Positions 25,444 through 34,851 of a DNA stretch of 35,497 nucleotides are shown here, one piece after another. The translations under genes and the position numbers were made by a program. Every line of letters starts with the position of its first letter. Positions within the stretch are counted from its first letter, which is position 1. The notes under the pieces were generated by a model. The model worked only from the letters and a program-made list of their open reading frames with translations. It was not told where the DNA came from and ran no database searches. Origin of the DNA: a virus; IMG/VR virus record IMGVR_UViG_3300031885_000065, positions 1 through 35,497 of that record; one strand, 5' to 3'.

Positions 25444-27303
25444 TTATTTTACTTCCTCAAATTCAACATTTTGGAAGTCTTCTTCAGTTATTTCGTCGTT
25501 TGGTGTTGTTTGTTCATACAACTTTTGACTTACTTCTTGGAATGTTTTATTAACTTCTTCCATCAAAGTTTTAACCTCAGAAATTTCTTTTTTAGTATGT
25601 GCTTCTCTTAACTTATCAACTTTTAAGTTAATTTCAGATTTTTCTTCTTCACTAATTTTATCCCCAAGATCCTCTAATGATTTACCAACTTGGAAAATCA
25701 AAGAATCTGCTGAATTTAATGTATCGATATCCTCTTTTAATTTTTTATCTGAATCGGCATTTATTTCCGCTTCTTGTTTCATTCTTTCAACTTCTTCTTT
25801 AGATAAACCTGAAGATGATTCAATTATAATAGATTGTACTTTATTTGTTGCGTTGTCCACCGCAGAAACATTAATAATACCATTCGCGTCAATATCAAAA
25901 GTTACCTCAATTTGTGGAGTTCCTCGTCTTGCCGGTGGAATCCCATCTAAATTAAATCTGCCGATAGATCTATTATCTTTTGACATTGTTCTTTCTCCTT
26001 GTAAGACATGAATCTCAACTATAGGTTGATTATCTACTGCCGTAGAAAATATTTCAGATTTTTTAGTTGGTATCGTTGTGTTAGAATTAATTAATTTTGT
26101 AAACACACCCCCCATAGTTTCAATACCTAACGAAAGTGGAGTCACATCAAGTAATAATACATCTGTAACATCACCCGCTAATACACCACCTTGAATTGCG
26201 GCCCCTAAAGCAACTACCTCATCAGGATTTACTCCTTTTGAAGGTTCTTTTCCAAAAAACTTTTTAACCGCTTCTTGAATCGCAGGAATACGAGTAGACC
26301 CACCAACCAAAATGATTTCATCAATATCAGATGGGGATAACTTAGCATTCTCCAAAGCCGATTTACAAGGTTTGATTGTTCTATTAACTAAAGATTGTGT
26401 TAATTGATCAAACTTAGATTTTGTAATAGTCATTACCAAGTGTTTAGGACCTGTGGAATCTGCCGTTACATAAGGAAGATTAATTTCAGTTTGTGGTGAA
26501 GAAGATAATTCGATTTTTGCTTTTTCGGCGGACTCACGAAGTCTCTGAAGTGCCATTGGGTCTTTTGAAATGTCCATTCCATTTTCTTTTTTAAATTCAG
26601 AAACTAAAAAGTCAATAAGTACTTGGTCAAAGTCGTCCCCACCTAAGTGAGTGTCCCCGTCAGTTGACAATACTTCAAATACTCCATCGCCGAGTTCCAA
26701 TACAGATACATCATGAGTTCCACCACCACAGTCAAACACCACAATTTTCATATCTTTAGACATTTTATCAAATCCGTACGCTAAAGCGGCTGCGGTTGGT
26801 TCGTTTATAATTCTTTTTACTGTAAGACCTGCGATTTCACCAGCTTCTTTTGTTGCCTGTCTTTGGGCATCATTAAAATAAGCAGGAACCGTAATAACAG
26901 CTTCAGTTACAGATTGCCCTAAATAATCTTCAGCAGTCTGTTTCATTTTTTGAAGTATCGCAGCTGAGATTTCTTGTGGCGAATAAGTTCTATCATTAAT
27001 TTGAACTTTTGGTGAGTTATTTTCTTTAACCAATTTATAAGGGACTTTTCTGATTTCGTTTTTAATATCATCAAAAGAACTTCCCATAAATCTTTTAATT
27101 GAGTAAATTGTTTTATCAGGATTTGTTACTGCCTGTCTTTTAGCCGGATCTCCAATTTTTCTTTCACCGTCTTTTACAAATCCTACAATAGATGGCGTGG
27201 TTCTTTTTCCTTCACTGTTAGCAATAACCACAGGATCCTTTCCTTCCATTACCGCAACACACGAATTAGTTGTCCCCAAGTCAATTCCAATTATTTTTCC
27301 CAT
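25444..27303 (-). CDS. dnaK: DnaK (Hsp70) chaperone, full length
   Basis: A 619-aa complete Hsp70. Nucleotide-binding domain: phosphate loop [15 protein letters not shown] at 4-18, the [20 protein letters not shown] segment, [15 protein letters not shown] and [14 protein letters not shown]. The linker [19 protein letters not shown] joins a beta substrate-binding domain ([14 protein letters not shown], then [20 protein letters not shown]) and a helical lid; the tail ends FEEVK. The GRF-x-LDGIPPA and [11 protein letters not shown] blocks look like Bacteroidota DnaK, implying capture from a host. No dnaJ or grpE gene is in the window, so host co-chaperones would be used. It is divergent from clpC and has an excellent host-type promoter, so it is not expected to be purely late. 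Confidence 0.97.
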
Positions 27304-27350
27304 TTTTTTATTATTTTATTTTTTATGTTTATTTTTTTTCACATTTATAC

Positions 27351-27381
27351 CAAATATATGCCATTTCAAAAAACATGTCAA
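27351..27381 (-). promoter_or_regulatory. Host-type promoter of dnaK
   Basis: On the minus strand TTG (27381-27379) is followed after exactly 20 nt by TATATTTG (27358-27351), a full match to the Bacteroidota housekeeping consensus. The predicted start is near 27345, giving a leader of about 40 nt. Confidence 0.8.
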
Positions 27382-27383
27382 TA

Positions 27384-27411
27384 TGTCAGTATATTTTTTT
27401 TTATACTGACA
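27384..27411 (+). promoter_or_regulatory. Candidate operator: perfect 10-bp inverted repeat
   Basis: TGTCAGTATA and TATACTGACA flank an 8-T spacer. It lies just upstream of the dnaK -33 element (27379-27381) and just upstream of the clpC -33 element (27423-27425), in the middle of the divergent promoter region. An extra half-site, ATGTCA at 27375-27380, overlaps the dnaK -33. The arrangement suits a shared regulator binding site; the regulator is unknown. No T-run follows either arm, so it is not a typical terminator. Confidence 0.55.
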
Positions 27412-27422
27412 AAATAACAATA

Positions 27423-27455
27423 TTGGACTTTTGTAAATTTATTTATTAGTTTTTG
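27423..27455 (+). promoter_or_regulatory. Probable host-type promoter of clpC
   Basis: TTG at 27423-27425 is followed after 21 nt by TAGTTTTTG, a near match to TAnnTTTG. The predicted start is about 14 nt before the clpC ATG. Confidence 0.5.
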
Positions 27456-27474
27456 AATGTAAAACAATATAAGT

Positions 27475-29514
27475 ATGTTAGAATTTATGGATGAAGGAAA
27501 TGATAAATCAAAAAAAAAGTCTGATACAGGTACACCTGTGTTAGATAATTTTAGTAAGGATTTAAACAAATTAGCTCAAGAGGGTAAGTTAGACCCTGTA
27601 ATTGGTAGAAAAAAAGAAATATTGAGAATTGCTCAAATTCTATCTAGAAGAAAGAAAAATAACCCAATTATTATTGGTGAACCTGGCGCGGGTAAGACTG
27701 CAATCGTTGAGGGTCTTGCAATGATGATTCATAACGGTGAGTGTCCTAAAACTTTAATGGACAAGAGAATTGTATCGTTAGATATGAATTCGTTAGTTGC
27801 TGGAACTAAATACAGAGGTCAGTTTGAGGAAAGAATGAAAGTAATTATTGAAGAACTTCAGGATGCCCCCAACATCATTTTATTTATTGATGAGATTCAT
27901 ACAATAGTTGGGGCCGGTAATAGTTCAGGTTCATTAGATGCCTCAAATATATTTAAACCGGCACTTTCTCGTGGTGAGATACAATGTATTGGTGCGACTA
28001 CTCTTGATGAATATAGGACAAACTTTGAGAAGGACGGAGCATTAGAAAGAAGATTTCAAAAAGTAATTGTAGACCCATCTACAAAAGAGGAAACTTTAGA
28101 AATTCTTAAATTAAGTAAGGAAAAATATGAAGATCACCATAAAGTAAGTTATGACGATGAAACATTATTGATATTTGTTGAGTTGGCGGATCGTTATATT
28201 ACAGATCGTGAATTTCCAGATAAAGCATTTGATATTTTAGATGAGGTTGGGGCAAGAATGCAAATTGACATAAAACTACCACAAGAAATTGAGAATCTTA
28301 AAGAAGAGGCAAATAAAATTAAACAAGAAAAACTTGATGTAATTAAAAGACAAGACTACGAACAAGCCGCGGAACTTCGTGATCGCGAAAGAAACATTTT
28401 GGTTAAACTTGATGATGAAAAAAAAAAGTTTGAGGAACATTTAAGGAGTAGTAAACGAACCATTCCAGAAGAATTAATATATGAAGTGGTTTCAAATATG
28501 ACTAAAATTCCAATTTCAAACATTAATGTTGATGAAAGAAATAGTTTAATAAATCTTACAAATAATTTAAGTTCAAAAGTTATTGGTCAAGAAGAAGCGG
28601 TATTGAAAATCACAAAGGCTATTCGCAGAAATAGAATGGGAATTAAAGACCCAAACAAACCAATTGGTTCATTTATTTTCTTGGGATCAACTGGTGTTGG
28701 TAAAACATATTTGGCAAAACAATTGGCAAAAGAGATATTTGGTAGTGAAGATAATATGATCCGTGTGGATATGAGTGAATACCAAGAGAAACACACTATT
28801 TCTCGTTTGATTGGTTCACCTCCAGGATATGTTGGTCACGATGAAGGTGGACAACTAACAGAACAGGTTAAAAACAAACCTTACTCTGTTGTATTGTTTG
28901 ATGAGATTGAGAAAGCACACAAAGATATTTTTTCAACACTTCTTCAGTTGTTAGATGATGGTCATATCACAGATTCATTGGGTCGTAAAATCAACTTTAA
29001 AAATTGTTTAATCATTATGACTTCTAATATTGGCGTTAGAAGATTACAAGATTTTGGAACTGGAGTTGGGTTTAAAACAAACAAAAGTGAGATTGTTATG
29101 GAAGAAGAAAAACAAGAGGTTTTGAAAAAAGAATTAAAGAAGTTTTTTGCTCCTGAATTTTTAAATCGTATTGATGATGTTATTATTTTTAACTCATTAG
29201 AAAAAATACATATTGACAAAATTACAAAACTTGAAATTGACAAATTATTAAAAAGAGTTAGTGAGAAAAAATATAATTTTACATACGAACAAGATCTTGT
29301 GGATTATATATCTAAAGTAGGGTTTGATGAAACATTTGGAGCTCGTCCAATCAAAAGAGCTATTCAAGATAAAATTGAGGATTTAATTTCTGAAAAGATT
29401 TTAATGATGGAGATTGAAGAGAATAAGGATTATGTTTTAAAAGTGGAAAATGATGAGGTTTTAGTTTCTAATAAAGAAGAAAAGGCCAAAAAAACAAGAA
29501 AAAAGAAAGAATAA
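27475..29514 (+). CDS. clpC: ClpC-type AAA+ unfoldase lacking the N-domain
   Basis: A 679-aa protein with two AAA+ modules. D1: Walker A GEPGAGKT at 68-75, Walker B ILFIDE at 135-140, arginine finger in ALERRFQKV. The short middle domain has a UVR-type motif (DYEQAAELRDRE, about 294-305), which marks ClpC and not ClpB. D2: Walker A GSTGVGKT at 404-411, Walker B VVLFDEIEKA and sensor 2 GARPIKRAI. A VGF tripeptide at 531-533 is where ClpC carries its ClpP-docking loop. Full ClpC has about 150 more N-terminal residues for adaptors; here the protein starts almost directly at TPVLDNFSKDL. So it should thread substrates into a ClpP, presumably the host's, with different substrate choice. No clpP is in the window. 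Confidence 0.93.
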   Translation: MLEFMDEGNDKSKKKSDTGTPVLDNFSKDLNKLAQEGKLDPVIGRKKEILRIAQILSRRKKNNPIIIGEPGAGKTAIVEGLAMMIHNGECPKTLMDKRIVSLDMNSLVAGTKYRGQFEERMKVIIEELQDAPNIILFIDEIHTIVGAGNSSGSLDASNIFKPALSRGEIQCIGATTLDEYRTNFEKDGALERRFQKVIVDPSTKEETLEILKLSKEKYEDHHKVSYDDETLLIFVELADRYITDREFPDKAFDILDEVGARMQIDIKLPQEIENLKEEANKIKQEKLDVIKRQDYEQAAELRDRERNILVKLDDEKKKFEEHLRSSKRTIPEELIYEVVSNMTKIPISNINVDERNSLINLTNNLSSKVIGQEEAVLKITKAIRRNRMGIKDPNKPIGSFIFLGSTGVGKTYLAKQLAKEIFGSEDNMIRVDMSEYQEKHTISRLIGSPPGYVGHDEGGQLTEQVKNKPYSVVLFDEIEKAHKDIFSTLLQLLDDGHITDSLGRKINFKNCLIIMTSNIGVRRLQDFGTGVGFKTNKSEIVMEEEKQEVLKKELKKFFAPEFLNRIDDVIIFNSLEKIHIDKITKLEIDKLLKRVSEKKYNFTYEQDLVDYISKVGFDETFGARPIKRAIQDKIEDLISEKILMMEIEENKDYVLKVENDEVLVSNKEEKAKKTRKKKE

Positions 29515-29537
29515 TTTTTTATTAACATTTATTCAAC

Positions 29538-29545
29538 TATCTTTG
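29538..29545 (+). promoter_or_regulatory. Host-type promoter -7 element of the peptidase gene
   Basis: TATCTTTG, an exact TAnnTTTG match and identical to the tmRNA and ncRNA elements, ends 15 nt before the ATG at 29561. The -33 position is a T-run only. Confidence 0.5.
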
Positions 29546-29560
29546 TGGAAACAATTTGAA

Positions 29561-30586
29561 ATGAATCTAAATAAATTTAAGGAACTTCTTTCTGTCCCAT
29601 CCAAAACTTATCAAGAAGATAAGATGGTGAAATACCTAATGGACGAATTATCACAAATGGAGGGAATTGAAGTGGTGTGTGATGACCATAAAAATATCTA
29701 TGTTACAAAAGGAACATTAGATGAGGGTGAGTATTACCCAATGTTTATATCACACACCGACACGGTTCATAACCTTGTTGATGAAATCATAGTTAAAGAA
29801 GAATATCTTCTTCGTCCTTACACATTCGGAAAAGAATTTGGTGATAAACAAGTATTATGTTTAAAGGCGTACGACAAAGACAAAAACCCAACTGGTATTG
29901 GTGGTGATGATAAATGCGGTATTTATATTTGTTTAGAATTACTTCGTCAATTAGATAAAGTTAAGGTTGCATTTTTTGTGTCAGAAGAAACAGGTTGTAA
30001 TGGGTCAAAAATGGTTAATACAGAGTTTTTAAACGATGTTGGTTATTGTACCCAATACGATGCACCAGGAGACCACTTAATTTCATATAGTTGTATGGGA
30101 ACAGTATTGTTTGATAAAGATGGTGAATTCTTTAATATTTCATTAAGATCAATTACCAAAGGGTTTAAAAATGAAATGATGGTTCAGAGTCATCCATACA
30201 CAGATATTATGATTATGAAACAAAAATCAGATTTATCCTGTATAAACATGTCTTGTGGTTATTATAATATGCACACAGCAAATGAGTTTGTTTGTATTGA
30301 TGATGTTGAAAGAGCAATTGTTGCAGGAAAAAACATGGTTGATAGTTTGGGATTAAAAAAGTATGAGTTCAAAACAGAACCAGAAACAATAACTACCACA
30401 ACGACTTTGTTTGATGATGAAAGCCCATTTTATGATGATGTACACCAATTATCATCTATTGATGTTATTGAAGAAAAGAATGGGTTTATAATTACAGATA
30501 TTTACGATGAAAATCAATTTTACATCGATGATGAGGATGGCTATAGACTATATGAGATATTAAAAGATCGTTATCGTCTTAATTGA
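29561..30586 (+). CDS. Di-zinc peptidase, M20 / peptidase T-like
   Basis: A 341-aa protein from the ATG at 29561 (an upstream TTG overlaps the promoter and is rejected). Metal and catalytic motifs are in family order: SHTDT with His65 and Asp67, GGDDKCG with the bridging Asp at 116 or 117, SEETG with the catalytic Glu142 and ligand Glu143, QYDAPG with Asp167, and a final NMHTANE His. These enzymes are cytoplasmic and release residues from short peptides. It lies 46 bp after clpC on the same strand, with an added promoter, so it could finish the breakdown of ClpCP products. A C-terminal extension of about 70 residues (after LGLKKYEF) is acidic and unrecognised. Exact family within the M20/M42 group is uncertain. 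Confidence 0.8.
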   Translation: MNLNKFKELLSVPSKTYQEDKMVKYLMDELSQMEGIEVVCDDHKNIYVTKGTLDEGEYYPMFISHTDTVHNLVDEIIVKEEYLLRPYTFGKEFGDKQVLCLKAYDKDKNPTGIGGDDKCGIYICLELLRQLDKVKVAFFVSEETGCNGSKMVNTEFLNDVGYCTQYDAPGDHLISYSCMGTVLFDKDGEFFNISLRSITKGFKNEMMVQSHPYTDIMIMKQKSDLSCINMSCGYYNMHTANEFVCIDDVERAIVAGKNMVDSLGLKKYEFKTEPETITTTTTLFDDESPFYDDVHQLSSIDVIEEKNGFIITDIYDENQFYIDDEDGYRLYEILKDRYRLN

Positions 30587-31716
30587 CCAGGTTGTATTCT
30601 AAAGTCAGCTGGGTTGAATAAACTTGGTTGGGTTGCCATTGCAATTACTGAATCAACAGTAGATAACCCGTATTGTCTATCTCCAAAATAACTATTTGAC
30701 CCGACAATATATTTTACTTCCAAAGTTTTGGTGTCAACTTTCTCAACTTTAATTCTTAATCCTTTTTGTCCTGGTATTTCTACACCACGATTAGAAAAAA
30801 GACCTAACTTAGTAAGTTTTTCCATTACTACTATATAGTCAGGATTAAAGTCTTCTTCAGCTTTTTCTATATACACATCAATTAGATCTTCTAATTTTTG
30901 ACAAGATTCAGAGTTAAAAATATCATTATCCATAAAATAACCTTCCATCTCGTAAGGATCTGGAAGAGTGTGTCTAAATTTCTTATCTATACTTTCAAGT
31001 ATCACATCAATAGCCCTTTTGTCAAATTCACCATTTTCAACATAAAGTTGGACCAAATTTCCCCAACTTATAAAATACAAACCAAAACACCATTTACCCC
31101 ACTTCTCAATACCAAATTCAGAAAGTGTTTCACAGTAGGCAGTTAAGATTGCTTGTTTAGCACCTTCTTCAGTTGCATTTGCTTTTGCTGAACATATTAT
31201 ATCATTAGCTTCATCACCAAGACTACTAAAAAATTTATCTAAAACATCTGTTATTTCTGATTCATCGTCAATTCTTCTACCGTCTTCTGAAATACTATCC
31301 GCCAAAGAAGGTGCAATTATTTTTAACAACTCTTTTAGTTTTAAACTAGCTTGATTACAAAAGTAACCTAAAACATAACCTTCACTCCAATCATTAGTAG
31401 ATCTATCAGAACATTCATATTCCCAATCATAAGAACCATGATACATTTGATCATAGTTTCGAGCATCCCACTCACCATCAGACCCGTCTTCAAAAACTTC
31501 AGGAAAAAAAAATTTTAAAAATTGATCTAAACCATCAAAGTCAAATAACAAACCATCATGTTGTACTCTAACACTATTAATATCAATCTTGTCTTCATAT
31601 TTATCACTTTTGAATTCAACTTCGTCAGAAGATAACTTTCTTTTGTTTAAAAGAAGTATTTTTTGGAAGTCATCTAACTCTGAGACATCATTTTCGATAA
31701 GAAGTCTTTTTCTCAT
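30571..31716 (-). CDS. Hypothetical 381-aa protein
   Basis: Starts MRKRLLIENDVSELDDFQKI. Residues 45-125 are rich in Asp, Tyr and Trp (YDQMYHGSYDWEYECSDRST), followed by an alpha-helical middle with several cysteines (ANDIICSAKANATEEGAKQA, WGKWCFGLYFISWGNLVQLY) and a C-terminal beta part (GLRIKVEKVDTKTLEVKYIV). I do not recognise it. The L-I-E after the basic start resembles the leaders of packaged proteins in this phage but is not a close match. It overlaps the convergent peptidase gene by 16 bp; the box lies 5 nt before the ATG. Confidence 0.7.
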   Translation of the reverse strand: MRKRLLIENDVSELDDFQKILLLNKRKLSSDEVEFKSDKYEDKIDINSVRVQHDGLLFDFDGLDQFLKFFFPEVFEDGSDGEWDARNYDQMYHGSYDWEYECSDRSTNDWSEGYVLGYFCNQASLKLKELLKIIAPSLADSISEDGRRIDDESEITDVLDKFFSSLGDEANDIICSAKANATEEGAKQAILTAYCETLSEFGIEKWGKWCFGLYFISWGNLVQLYVENGEFDKRAIDVILESIDKKFRHTLPDPYEMEGYFMDNDIFNSESCQKLEDLIDVYIEKAEEDFNPDYIVVMEKLTKLGLFSNRGVEIPGQKGLRIKVEKVDTKTLEVKYIVGSNSYFGDRQYGLSTVDSVIAMATQPSLFNPADFRIQPGQLRR

Positions 31717-31731: not shown

Positions 31732-31762
31732 TTGAATAATATAAATCTTTGTATTATCTTTG
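31732..31762 (+). promoter_or_regulatory. Host-type promoter of the tmRNA
   Basis: TTG (31732-31734), 20 nt, TATCTTTG (31755-31762): a full Bacteroidota consensus match. The predicted start near 31768 leaves a leader of about 26 nt before the mature 5' end, to be removed by RNase P. Confidence 0.8.
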
Positions 31763-31793
31763 TATTTATAATATTACAAGTTATTTGACATAT

Positions 31794-32177
31794 GGGGGCG
31801 TTTTTGGATTTGACAGGTATTGGCTGAGGAATAAGGGCATGTAGGGACTGAGTTAATCTCTTTAAGAACTGACTTAAGAATACAACTGGCAATGTGCTAA
31901 ACAAAATGGAAACTCTTGGTTTACTAAGAGGTTCTGAAGTTACTGTAGCTTAATAAGATACGGAAACGGGGGGTCGGCAGACATATAACCTAGCAACAGA
32001 AGTCGTAGTTGTGGTGGATTACTATTGAACCCTAAATCGAATGGTAACCATTGGTTGTTGATTTACGATGGTGAAGAACAAATCAACTATTTTGGGGTAT
32101 TAGAAAATACCAACCTAAACATGTAGTTCTTATCTGACAGGATAGACTGGACGAGGGTTCGAGGCCCTCCGCCTCCA
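31794..32177 (+). ncRNA. ssrA: Transfer-messenger RNA (tmRNA)
   Basis: About 384 nt. The 5' end GGGGGCG pairs with CGCCUCC at 32170-32176 (seven pairs, one G-U), and the conserved GGAUUUGACAGG D-arm element and the GGUUCGAGGCC T-arm are in place. CCA is not encoded (A is followed by CAA), so it must be added. The best tag frame resumes at GGC 31888 and ends in tandem stops TAATAA at 31951: 21 codons, starting GNVLNK and ending GSEVTVA. Gly as first residue is usual in Bacteroidota, but 21 residues and the -TVA end (instead of -LAA) are not. It frees stalled ribosomes and marks their products for proteolysis. Tag frame is inferred; the RNA call is firm. Confidence 0.96.
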
Positions 32178-32183
32178 CAAACT

Positions 32184-32213
32184 AAACTCCATCTCCACAG
32201 GTGGGGTTTTTTT
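32184..32213 (+). terminator. tmRNA terminator
   Basis: AAACTCCA pairs with TGGGGTTT (8 bp, one G-U), followed by seven T. Confidence 0.85.
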
Positions 32214-32264: not shown

Positions 32265-32287
32265 AAAAAAAGGGACTAATTGTCCCT
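32265..32287 (-). terminator. Terminator of the large ncRNA
   Basis: On the minus strand AGGGAC-AATTA-GTCCCT forms a 6-bp stem followed by seven T. The GGGAC core is shared with the capsid gene terminator at 10677. Confidence 0.8.
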
Positions 32288-33204
32288 AAATGTCTTACAT
32301 ATGTTTTGATAAAAAAAACCTGAGATTACAGTTTTTAGTGAGAAAACTTTAGAAGGATTATTGTTTCCCTTCGTATCCACCATCTTTTGAATGGTATTTC
32401 TCAGTGACGATTGGTTAGACCAATCACTTCTTAAGATAACAGTTACTCTCTTATTACTCGACTCTCTCCGAGAATGCCTTCCCAGTTGGTCCTTGCGGGA
32501 CTAGAGGTGTTTGGTAAGAATACGATCAGACTTGCGATCCTCTCGTGCAATGAACGGCTCATTACTATGTAGTCACCTTTCACTATTACCTGACGAACAC
32601 TTTTGCTTTATAGTTCTTAGTTTTACTTAATTTCTGTAAAGTTTTTGTGTTGTAGATTGTAGAAGTAGTGGTCCGTCTCGGGCTTCGTCATCTTTTGAAC
32701 AACAAAATACTCAACTACTCCTTGAAATGTCCCCATTCCCATATTTTAAGATTACTTCGAGATTAATCTCTTGGTAGAGATTTATCAAGGACAATGTCAG
32801 CACCACCTGTTTGTTGTCATACCTTTCGGTTTTAAGTATCCTTTAATATTGGAACCCGCAATAACAATATTGGAAATATTGGTTCTTGCATCATCCCTAC
32901 GAGTTATTCCTATTAGAGTTCCCTCCTCAACAAGATGACCCACATCACCTCGTCATAAAATCACTTTTCCTACACCGTTGGCCTCGGTACTAAAGATTTT
33001 ATGGTATCTCGCCTGTGTACTCGACCTCAATATTCCGAAGACTATTAAGACGCAAACCCGTTACACTTGGGGGTTCACTTTATCCTACTTTCGTAGTTTA
33101 TTTTATGGACTATACACGGCCCAATATCTTTATCAGTTTCATTTCTTACTCCTGAATGGATAATCTAATTTTTCAAAGAACTTTTCAGGACTTTTCCTGA
33201 TTTG
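32265..33204 (-). ncRNA. Large structured noncoding RNA, about 940 nt, class not identified
   Basis: No credible reading frame covers this stretch, yet it has a consensus promoter and a terminator on the minus strand. Many local helices fit an RNA: 5' hairpin UCAGGA-AAAG-UCCUGA (33200-33185); CUAC-GAAA-GUAG (33096-33085); a 10-position stem with one mismatch capped by UUCG (33049-33026); CAUAAAAUC (33003-32995) pairing with GAUUUUAUG (32962-32954) around an inner ACCG/CGGU hairpin; a closed arm at 32940-32881; ACC-GAAA-GGU; a 7-bp stem with ACCA loop (32782-32765); GAUUGG-UCUAA-CCAAUC (32425-32409). Size, phage setting and neighbouring tmRNA recall GOLLD and ROOL RNAs, but I recognise no defining sequence of either. 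It is not a tRNA, rRNA, RNase P RNA or complete group I/II intron by eye. Confidence 0.75.
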
Positions 33205-33209
33205 TTTCA

Positions 33210-33240
33210 CAAAGATATGACATTTATTTTGATCTGTCAA
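33210..33240 (-). promoter_or_regulatory. Host-type promoter of the large ncRNA
   Basis: On the minus strand TTG (33240-33238), 20 nt, TATCTTTG (33217-33210). Same spacing and same -7 octamer as the tmRNA promoter. Predicted start near 33204. Confidence 0.8.
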
Positions 33241-33471: not shown

Positions 33472-34851
33472 CTACAAAACTTTTTTAATTAAATCTAAAA
33501 TTCTTTCGGTTTCGTAATTAAATGATTCTTTAACCGCCTTAACTTCGGTTTTAGAGATTGCGGGAGGATTGATTTTTTTTGTTTTAAGTACTCTAGTAAC
33601 ACCTGTCCCAGTTCCCCATTTTTTCAAATCGGGACATTCTGCAATTTTAACCGCACCTTTATTACCTTTTAAACCATCAACAATACACTTATAATTTCCA
33701 TTCTTCATTGTTTTAACAGTTGCGTCAATACCATCTTGTTTGGTTTTATAATTTCTAACCCCACCAACACATTTATCGTTTTTCTTACTCAAACAATTCC
33801 ATAATGTTGACCCTTCTTTTGATTGTGTGGTATTGAATGGATTGTATGTTGATTTAGCTCCTTCGGCTTGCCTCCAAGCATAGAAAAATAATAAATTTTC
33901 TTTTGATATTGGTGCCCCTATATTTGATAAAACTTTGGTGTAGAATTCTTTGTCTTCACTTGATGGTTCTGTTATTTTATAATCTTTTAAATCTACGGTA
34001 ACATTTGGCAAATTTTTATCAACTTCTTTATCGTCTTCTTTATCGTCTTCTTTATCGTCTTCTTTATCGTCTTCTTTATCTAATGGATCTAAAATATTTC
34101 CAACGCTTGTTGTTTCTTTCTCTCCCCTCATCATTCTTGCTAATTTGGCAAATGCACCTAAACCTAATTTTTCAATTTGGGATTCCTCTGATGGTTTTTC
34201 TTCTGTGTTAACATTAGTTGATACATCTTCAGGTTTTTCATCTTTAGGTTTTTCATCTTTAGGTTTTTCATCTTTAGGTTTTTCATCTTTAGTTGGTGGT
34301 GATGAGGATGATCCAGCTTTATTTGAAATGTGTAAATGGTTGTAGTGATTCCCTCCAGTGTTTGTATGCCACAAAACAGCCTTGTCATTACCCCTCTCGG
34401 TATTCCAAGTATATCCCATTGACACTAAAGCATCTTTTAATTTAAACCCTAAATTTCTAAATTTTGCTAACCCATTTGTTGCGTTAGTGGCTTTTCCGGA
34501 ACCAACACCGTCTAATATTGAGACATCAACACCAGTACCGTTCATATGTCTACTTACATTTTTAGATTTTGTTAATCTACTATGTCCTGTTTTGGCGGTG
34601 GTTATTGTTGCAACAAGACCTACAGATTTTGCGGCAGCGTTTATATCATCTAATAACGGTTTATTTACAGAATCGTTTTGAGTCCCATCCTTATCATATT
34701 TTAAATTTGAATAATTAGTACTGTTAAGTTTAACTAAACTAAGTCCTTCATTAATGATATTTTTGTTATTTAATATATCACCATATTTTAAAATGATCTC
34801 TTTTATTATATCATTTTCTTTTATGTGATTTTTATGAAAATTATTGCTCAT
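33472..34851 (-). CDS. Two-domain peptidoglycan hydrolase (M15-like peptidase plus lysozyme-like domain)
   Basis: A 459-aa protein. Residues about 45-180 form an M15-type zinc peptidase: SRHMNGTGVDVSIL gives His102 and Asp109, and HYNHLHIS gives the final His at 172 or 174. Residues 187-265 are linkers with two exact tandem repeats, DEKPK-type units (18-bp DNA repeat) and KEDD-type units (15-bp repeat). The C-terminal domain (about 290-430: LLFFYAWRQAEGAKSTYNPF, then GVRNYKTKQDGIDATVKTMK) resembles phage lysozyme-like domains with a catalytic Glu in the A-E-G motif. No signal peptide, so release needs a holin or it rides in the virion. The N terminus has NIINE before Gly35-36, a possible prohead-protease site. 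Box 3 nt before the ATG. Confidence 0.82.
   Translation of the reverse strand: MSNNFHKNHIKENDIIKEIILKYGDILNNKNIINEGLSLVKLNSTNYSNLKYDKDGTQNDSVNKPLLDDINAAAKSVGLVATITTAKTGHSRLTKSKNVSRHMNGTGVDVSILDGVGSGKATNATNGLAKFRNLGFKLKDALVSMGYTWNTERGNDKAVLWHTNTGGNHYNHLHISNKAGSSSSPPTKDEKPKDEKPKDEKPKDEKPEDVSTNVNTEEKPSEESQIEKLGLGAFAKLARMMRGEKETTSVGNILDPLDKEDDKEDDKEDDKEDDKEVDKNLPNVTVDLKDYKITEPSSEDKEFYTKVLSNIGAPISKENLLFFYAWRQAEGAKSTYNPFNTTQSKEGSTLWNCLSKKNDKCVGGVRNYKTKQDGIDATVKTMKNGNYKCIVDGLKGNKGAVKIAECPDLKKWGTGTGVTRVLKTKKINPPAISKTEVKAVKESFNYETERILDLIKKVL
34018..34080 (-). repeat. 15-bp tandem repeat in the hydrolase gene
   Basis: Four copies of a unit read on the plus strand as TCGTCTTCTTTATCG-like, encoding K-E-D-D-x. 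The boundaries are approximate. Confidence 0.7.
34224..34292 (-). repeat. 18-bp tandem repeat in the hydrolase gene
   Basis: About four copies of TTTTTCATCTTTAGG-type units (18-bp period) encoding D-E-K-P-K linkers. Expected to vary in copy number between relatives. Confidence 0.75.

Follow-up and report, generated by a model that had tools for sequence, protein, structure and literature searches.

Introduction

GOLLD forms a very large natural RNA-only assembly. Published accounts, used here in excerpt, describe GOLLD env-38 as a 14-mer cage with separate cap and ring domains and report for GOLLD an intermolecular kissing loop with a GC or CG loop dinucleotide, a rise of expression during lysis and the binding of GOLLD by ribosomes in pull-down assays (PMC12286853). 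Production of phage from a Lactobacillus prophage did not depend on its GOLLD (PMC7567579). Phage tmRNA and SmpB as such have already been reported, in mycobacteriophages and Bacillus phage G (PMC4131195) and in huge phages (PMC7162821). The excerpts of PMC6582537 and PMC5643018 treat tmRNA as an RNA separate from GOLLD, and the terms tmRNA and boxA are absent from PMC12286853. We found no description of a GOLLD-tmRNA pairing in the literature searched, which consisted of such excerpts and did not include the original description of GOLLD or a 2020 study of the Mycobacterium GOLLD. For boxA, the gamma-proteobacterial consensus is GYTCTTTAANA (PMC5725501).

Here, we report a phage locus in which GOLLD faces a tmRNA, both RNAs being preceded by the same promoter motif and a boxA-like leader element, and we document the recurrence of this arrangement among other virus records. 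The pairing gives a concrete lead to the role of GOLLD.

Results

The window, by which we mean the whole 35,497-nt stretch of DNA analysed, corresponds to one entire virus record (IMG/VR IMGVR_UViG_3300031885_000065) and is probably a fragment. Its genes include those for a T4-like portal and terminase, an Hsp70 and a ClpA/B-like AAA+ protein, besides one that is peptidase-like. The genes for Hsp70 (861 bits), the ClpA/B-like AAA+ ATPase and the M20/M42-like peptidase occupy positions 25444-30586, a few kb from the tmRNA, and look like a phage protein-quality-control cluster. A neighbouring protein (30571-31716), unmatched in the phages collection, has relatives in 25 IMG/VR loci, one of them on a 272-kb contig. 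GOLLD itself was best matched in that collection by LR745206.1, an uncultured phage of 634,780 bases; no similar DNA turned up among plasmids. A Bacteroidota host is pointed to by the promoter type described below. Near the GOLLD promoter lies a minus-strand ORF of 459 aa (33472-34851) in which short repeats are visible and which matched no Pfam or PHROG family at E 0.001.

A preliminary description of positions 32265-33240, made from the sequence alone, had proposed a structured noncoding RNA without a credible gene, either a divergent member of the GOLLD or ROOL classes or a new class, and had suggested a search with the Rfam GOLLD, ROOL, OLE and HEARO models. In a cmscan of the window against 4227 Rfam families only GOLLD and tmRNA exceeded their thresholds, ROOL, OLE and HEARO remaining below theirs. 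The GOLLD match spans the whole of model RF02032 (positions 1-416) with 332.2 bits and E ~1e-94, which confirms the structured RNA as a full-length GOLLD; this identity is close to certain. Because the score stands at 332 against a gathering score of 150 bits, and because the Rfam 3' structure is kept and covaries, the RNA cannot be called very divergent, nor does it found a new class; of what had been proposed earlier, membership of GOLLD stands. It is a fresh member of GOLLD, and what is new is the tmRNA-linked, boxA-led locus. The Rfam model spans the 3' domain only; a second structured domain lies upstream of it, and together they exceed 800 nt, the length being taken from sequence signals (Table 1).

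The minus strand of 32265-33240, which is the RNA strand, held no ORF of at least 60 aa, as the absence of a credible gene had led one to expect, and the only plus-strand ORFs overlapping the segment are of 61 and 71 aa, both with a TTG start. The GAAA and UUCG loops that had been pointed out are visible in the sequence. We give practically no weight to the idea that the segment is a decayed protein gene or belongs to another large RNA class such as ROOL, OLE or HEARO: no point in its support was found, and the cmscan result excludes the other classes, a new one included, while the lack of ORFs on the RNA strand and the strong compensatory change among homologues, a pattern that argues against coding, exclude a decayed gene.

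Table 1. Positions of the GOLLD and tmRNA features in the window
Feature	Position	Strand	Evidence
GOLLD promoter TTG-N20-TATCTTTG	33210..33240	-	same motif upstream in 54/69 non-redundant GOLLD loci
boxB-like hairpin TCAGGAAAAGTCCTGA in GOLLD leader	33185..33200	-	hairpin counts in 65 loci
boxA-like element GTTCTTTGA in GOLLD leader	33173..33181	-	as in Bacteroidota 16S rRNA leaders
GOLLD 5' domain, beyond Rfam model	32723..33169	-	two-sided changes in 73/105 pairs, 45 homologues
GOLLD 3' domain, RF02032 positions 1-416	32317..32722	-	332.2 bits; 66/93 Rfam pairs two-sided
GOLLD intrinsic terminator, AGGGAC-AATTA-GTCCCT stem and T run	32265..32287	-	sequence
tmRNA promoter TTG-N20-TATCTTTG	31732..31762	+	motif in 38/41 tmRNA loci, near-duplicates included
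boxA-like element GTTATTTGA in tmRNA leader	31780..31788	+	GTTNTTT[GA]A in 40/41 leaders
Phage tmRNA RF00023	31794..32180	+	101.6 bits against a gathering score of 47 bits, whole model
Likely tmRNA tag reading frame GNVLNKMETLGLLRGSEVTVA	31888..31953	+	ends in stop; ARAGORN gives same frame and length in L236 only
Terminator-like stem after tmRNA	32184..32209	+	sequence

The promoter and the terminator that had been proposed for the RNA are both borne out by the sequence, and their positions agree with the suggested length of about 940 nt. Judging by the promoter, the transcript would start near 33203 and run for about 940 nt on the minus strand. The promoter is of a type that we take to be that of Bacteroidota. 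Within the window alone its motif is unremarkable (7 matches vs 4.1 ± 2.1 in simulated sequence), and it is conservation that supports the housekeeping type claimed for it, from which expression early in infection had been conjectured: of the 69 non-redundant GOLLD loci, 54, the window among them, have the motif, searched as TTG-N19-21-TANNTTTG, at a distance of 370-620 nt upstream of the 3' domain. These 69 loci are what remained of 286 GOLLD matches in the gathered loci after restriction to the 241 with full flanks and removal of near-duplicates.

Covariation, which had been named as a check, proved strong in both domains. Among 45 homologues the Rfam structure of the 3' domain was paired in 94.2% of cells; two-sided compensatory changes affect 66 of its 93 pairs, and sliding the partners by 1-3 columns brought pairing down to 39-46%. 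The RNAalifold structure of the 5' domain was paired in 96.9% of cells, with two-sided changes in 73 of 105 pairs, against 35-40% in the slid versions, a contrast that is partly built in because this structure was derived from the same alignment, whereas that of the 3' domain came from Rfam. The 45 were aligned from 65 loci with a boxA-like element, and the 20 omitted (LR745206.1 among them) were mostly more diverged or shorter; the covariation counts therefore concern the nearer relatives. Between the window and one relative (G003), the 5' domains are 93% identical and the 3' domains 73-74%. This suggests that recombination can move the two domains as modules, in keeping with the split of env-38 into cap and ring (PMC12286853). 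At the presumed equivalent of the published kissing-loop hairpin, by our own mapping, the GOLLD of the window has GC; the loop of this presumed hairpin reads CGCAA in 38 of the 45 homologues and GTCGA in 5.

An element of type AATCCACRACAC stands at the start of the linker in the 3' domain (running down from about 32658 on the minus strand) in most of the 45 homologues. Pairing of this element with tmRNA was tried and rejected, the best alignments matching 7-10 of 12 positions and none being outstanding. Against rRNA, 15 of 25 Bacteroidota operons match it at 10 or more of 12 positions, vs 20% in simulated sequence, these matches not being independent because 23S is conserved. In 12 of the 25 operons the top match is located late in the operon, at a site of type GCGTTGTGGAGT with about 8 bp of complementarity. 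In one operon (L453) this site lies in 23S at about nucleotides 2157-2168, presumably near the L1 stalk by E. coli numbering. The complementarity is an unproven lead only and does not exceed what a single chance match could produce, given how conserved the molecule is. In one record (G062; loci L041 and L117) GOLLD is present twice, the copies being separated by about 16 kb.

The tmRNA that the preliminary description had placed opposite the RNA was confirmed (Table 1), and it is convergent with GOLLD across a gap of 136 nt. In the clade of the window, GOLLD is present in 16 of 23 searched IMG/VR records, and all 16 also hold a tmRNA on the 3' side of GOLLD in convergent orientation, with gaps of 111-938 nt. 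Outside this clade, samples were drawn with two independent DNA patterns, a GOLLD motif and a tmRNA motif, and among the matches listed 44 of 45 records with both RNAs have the tmRNA within 7 kb on the 3' side of GOLLD, 42 of the 45 being convergent. The GOLLD-motif set comprised, among the matches listed, 80 records, many of them fragments, 75 with GOLLD and 26 with tmRNA over cut-off; here the two RNAs lay within 7 kb in 24 of 25 non-clade records with both, the tmRNA always on the 3' side and convergent in 22. The tmRNA-motif set, again among the matches listed, comprised 50 records, 48 with tmRNA and 20 with GOLLD over cut-off, and in all 20 records with both RNAs these were within 7 kb and convergent. 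In listed records of at least 60 kb the RNAs were near each other in 11 of 12 and 10 of 10 cases, vs 1.6 and 1.4 expected from random placement, statistics that treat records as independent although they include several near-duplicates and the phages may be related by descent. A record reached by both routes (G022) was counted with the clade; L132 and L133 were left out as the same match as L131, L301 was skipped as the same contig as G009, and the further loci L083-L119 and L310-L365 were uncounted.

Three records depart from the common arrangement, one with the RNAs 174 kb apart (G095) and two with both on one strand (G034, G067). The link between GOLLD and tmRNA is not universal, and many records have one RNA alone. 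LR745206.1 (634 kb) holds GOLLD and had no tmRNA over cut-off, two isolates, an Acinetobacter phage and a Streptococcus phage, have GOLLD but, over the roughly 12 kb scanned in each, no tmRNA, and 28 of the 48 tmRNA-positive records of the tmRNA-motif set, among the matches listed, lack GOLLD over cut-off; one of these 28 (G134) has a partial sub-cut-off GOLLD match at its contig end. A substitute large RNA beside the tmRNA was looked for in 17 loci lacking GOLLD and rejected, as no other large Rfam match appeared. Five ORF-free stretches of 351-427 nt remain among these loci.

The gap between the two RNAs varies in content. Three loci (L223, L228, L230) have an ORF of 274 aa there with a sub-threshold NUMOD3 motif (19.9 vs 20.4 bits in L223), others a rhomboid or unrelated ORFs, and in 8 of 41 pair loci (L242, L244-L248, L257, L258) a tRNA-Met follows directly 3' of GOLLD on the same strand. 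Pairwise identities of the tmRNA correlate with those of the 5' domain (Spearman 0.59) and of the 3' domain (Spearman 0.27); the former value is what plain co-inheritance would give. Wholesale swaps of GOLLD against tmRNA, suspected from identities that counted gaps, were discarded: with gaps ignored, no pair combined a 3' domain identity of at least 0.88 with a tmRNA identity of at most 0.72. Four pairs had tmRNA identities of at least 0.90 with 3' domain identities of at most 0.75, gaps likewise ignored.

Downstream of the GOLLD promoter in the window, the boxB-like hairpin precedes the boxA-like element. Such an element, GTTCTTT[GA]A, follows the promoter within 75 nt in 51 of the 54 motif-bearing GOLLD loci and occurs somewhere between 300 and 560 nt upstream of the 3' domain in 65 of the 69; a hairpin of at least 5 bp is found within the 28 nt before it in 51 of these 65 loci vs 17% in shuffles. 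The tmRNA leaders carry the form GTTNTTT[GA]A in 40 of 41 phage loci and the promoter motif in 38, near-duplicates included. GTTCTTTGA is also the commonest 9-mer of Bacteroidota 16S leaders, being present in 28 of 77, whereas 640 kb of flanking sequence, counted over both strands, contains it 4 times. Of the 77 leaders, 40 are reached by a wider boxA pattern, and 37 have none of the patterns tried. This 16S control consisted of genes with a Bacteroidota-type start, 77 of 80 loci having enough upstream sequence and one (L398) being labelled Saccharibacteria. Host tmRNA leaders, from the 26 of 29 Bacteroidota genomes with a tmRNA over cut-off, have a boxA-like element in one case, and a further leader has GTTCTTT at its end, where it borders on the gene. 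Because 13 of 17 phage tmRNAs without GOLLD have such an element by a loose pattern, the boxA-like leader is not specific to the pair and is general to these phage tmRNAs.

It could be argued that GTTCTTTGA is no boxA and instead contributes to the GOLLD fold, for example by forming a short terminal helix together with the 3' end; in the RNAalifold consensus of the full length, its TTGA is paired with that end. The proposed helix is of 4 bp only, however, and the frequency of the 9-mer in 16S leaders, the presence of a variant before the unrelated tmRNA and the usual position behind a hairpin in GOLLD all speak against this explanation, which we regard as improbable.

ARAGORN missed the tmRNA of the window. 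A related tag frame of 21-22 aa is present in all 41 tmRNAs of the pair loci, 40 ending in VA and one in VAA, and related tags were found in 15 of the 17 tmRNAs of phages without GOLLD. The tags of Bacteroidota host tmRNAs differ from these likely phage tags in having 9 aa and ending in LAA or MAA in 21 of 23 ARAGORN calls. Among the pair loci (L219-L258 and the window), ARAGORN called a tmRNA in 3 of 41: its tag agrees with ours in L236, is shorter but in frame in L243, and lies in another frame in L239. Since all 41 have an Rfam match, phage tmRNAs of this type, with a re-coded tag, are likely under-called by ARAGORN and under-annotated in this group. The long tag may steer tagged proteins away from host proteases or toward the phage Clp-like ATPase.

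Pfam SmpB was found in 10 of 77 records searched, and in 8 of the 60 searched records with both RNAs. In five of these eight (G101, G103, G113, G119, G136) it occupies the gap between the two RNAs and shares the strand of GOLLD; in two (G053, G098) it is about 5 kb upstream of GOLLD and in one (G032) about 97 kb away. There are fewer than eight independent cases, because G113 and G136, and likewise G053 and G098, are alike in position and gap length. The Pfam search found no SmpB in the window, in its 272-kb relative (G021) or in any of the 15 clade records searched, the window included; host SmpB would therefore have to serve in the clade.

Discussion

Two findings direct attention to the translation machinery: the recurrent neighbourhood of tmRNA, in some records with SmpB, and a leader motif that rRNA also carries. 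We favour, with a probability of roughly 0.55 for the explanation as a whole, that GOLLD here is part of a phage ribosome-rescue locus with rRNA-like transcription, its cages acting on the translation machinery. Membership of the GOLLD family, the conserved structure, the promoter and boxA-like motifs, the pairing and the placement of SmpB are all direct readings of the sequences. An RNA of about 940 nt would be made from its own Bacteroidota-type promoter, through an rRNA-like leader with hairpin and boxA-like element, to an intrinsic terminator. By homology its 5' domain would fold as a cap and its 3' domain as a ring, and its copies would assemble into a homo-oligomeric cage. The rescue locus would be completed by the convergent tmRNA, which shares the promoter type and likewise has a boxA-like leader, joined in some relatives by SmpB located between the two RNAs. 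The boxA would recruit host Nus factors, allowing RNA polymerase to make long untranslated RNAs without Rho termination, and these factors could aid the folding of GOLLD and tmRNA as they do for rRNA. The cages may then act on ribosomes, tmRNA or tRNAs by holding or shielding them, while the tmRNA would free ribosomes stalled on decaying mRNA, the purpose being a rescue pool kept for the phage. We infer for the window RNA transcription itself, Nus factor use, cage formation and contact with ribosomes or tmRNA. The dispensability of GOLLD in a Lactobacillus prophage (PMC7567579) counts against a rescue locus. A bolder version makes GOLLD the compartment of phage ribosome rescue, with boxA/Nus-driven synthesis and folding and a cage holding tmRNA-SmpB or stalled ribosomes as a private, protected pool that has its own long degradation tag during host shutdown; we consider it rather unlikely.

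The main competing explanation is that of a stable-RNA island, in which GOLLD and tmRNA merely share a non-coding hot spot of related phages, together with tRNAs and mobile ORFs, and their order reflects ancestral synteny with no functional coupling. The gaps often contain unrelated ORFs, the one with the sub-threshold NUMOD3 motif and the rhomboid among them, a tRNA-Met adjoins GOLLD in some pair loci, and GOLLD elsewhere is found near tRNAs (also PMC6582537, in excerpt). The phages may moreover share ancestry, which the placement probabilities ignore, and the 5' domain correlates with the tmRNA in identity. Against an island, order and convergence are kept in 42 of 45 non-clade records, among the matches listed, despite differing gap content, and the 3' domain correlates only weakly with the tmRNA. 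That host tmRNAs mostly have no boxA leader (1 of 26) and that SmpB lies inside the gap in five records also speak against it. Taken together, we hold the island to be a substantial possibility that falls short of even odds.

With a rescue locus as the preferred explanation, the question of what GOLLD does becomes directly testable. Compared with known systems, the RNA of the window resembles env-38 and its relatives (RF02032) in its whole 3' model, a separate 5' domain, a length above 800 nt and a phage origin, here seen in the T4-like portal and terminase. It differs in its neighbour: GOLLD often lies near tRNA genes, but no tRNA was found in the window, and its GOLLD adjoins a tmRNA 136 nt away, not a tRNA array. 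ROOL is likewise a giant cage-forming phage RNA (PMC12286853), but has no over-threshold match in the window. Mycobacteriophages, phage G and huge phages have a phage tmRNA and sometimes SmpB, as found here, with no GOLLD neighbour mentioned in the excerpts of the respective papers. Nor is a hairpin-boxA leader, as borne by the GOLLD of the window, described for GOLLD in the excerpts of the literature examined. Its closest counterparts are the rRNA leaders with boxB-boxA that serve Nus antitermination (PMC5725501, in excerpt), in which a hairpin and then boxA follow shortly after the promoter, as in GOLLD. The gamma-proteobacterial consensus has A where most of the elements in this study have G, and the rRNA-type leader, with its candidate boxA, here precedes a giant phage RNA and a tmRNA.
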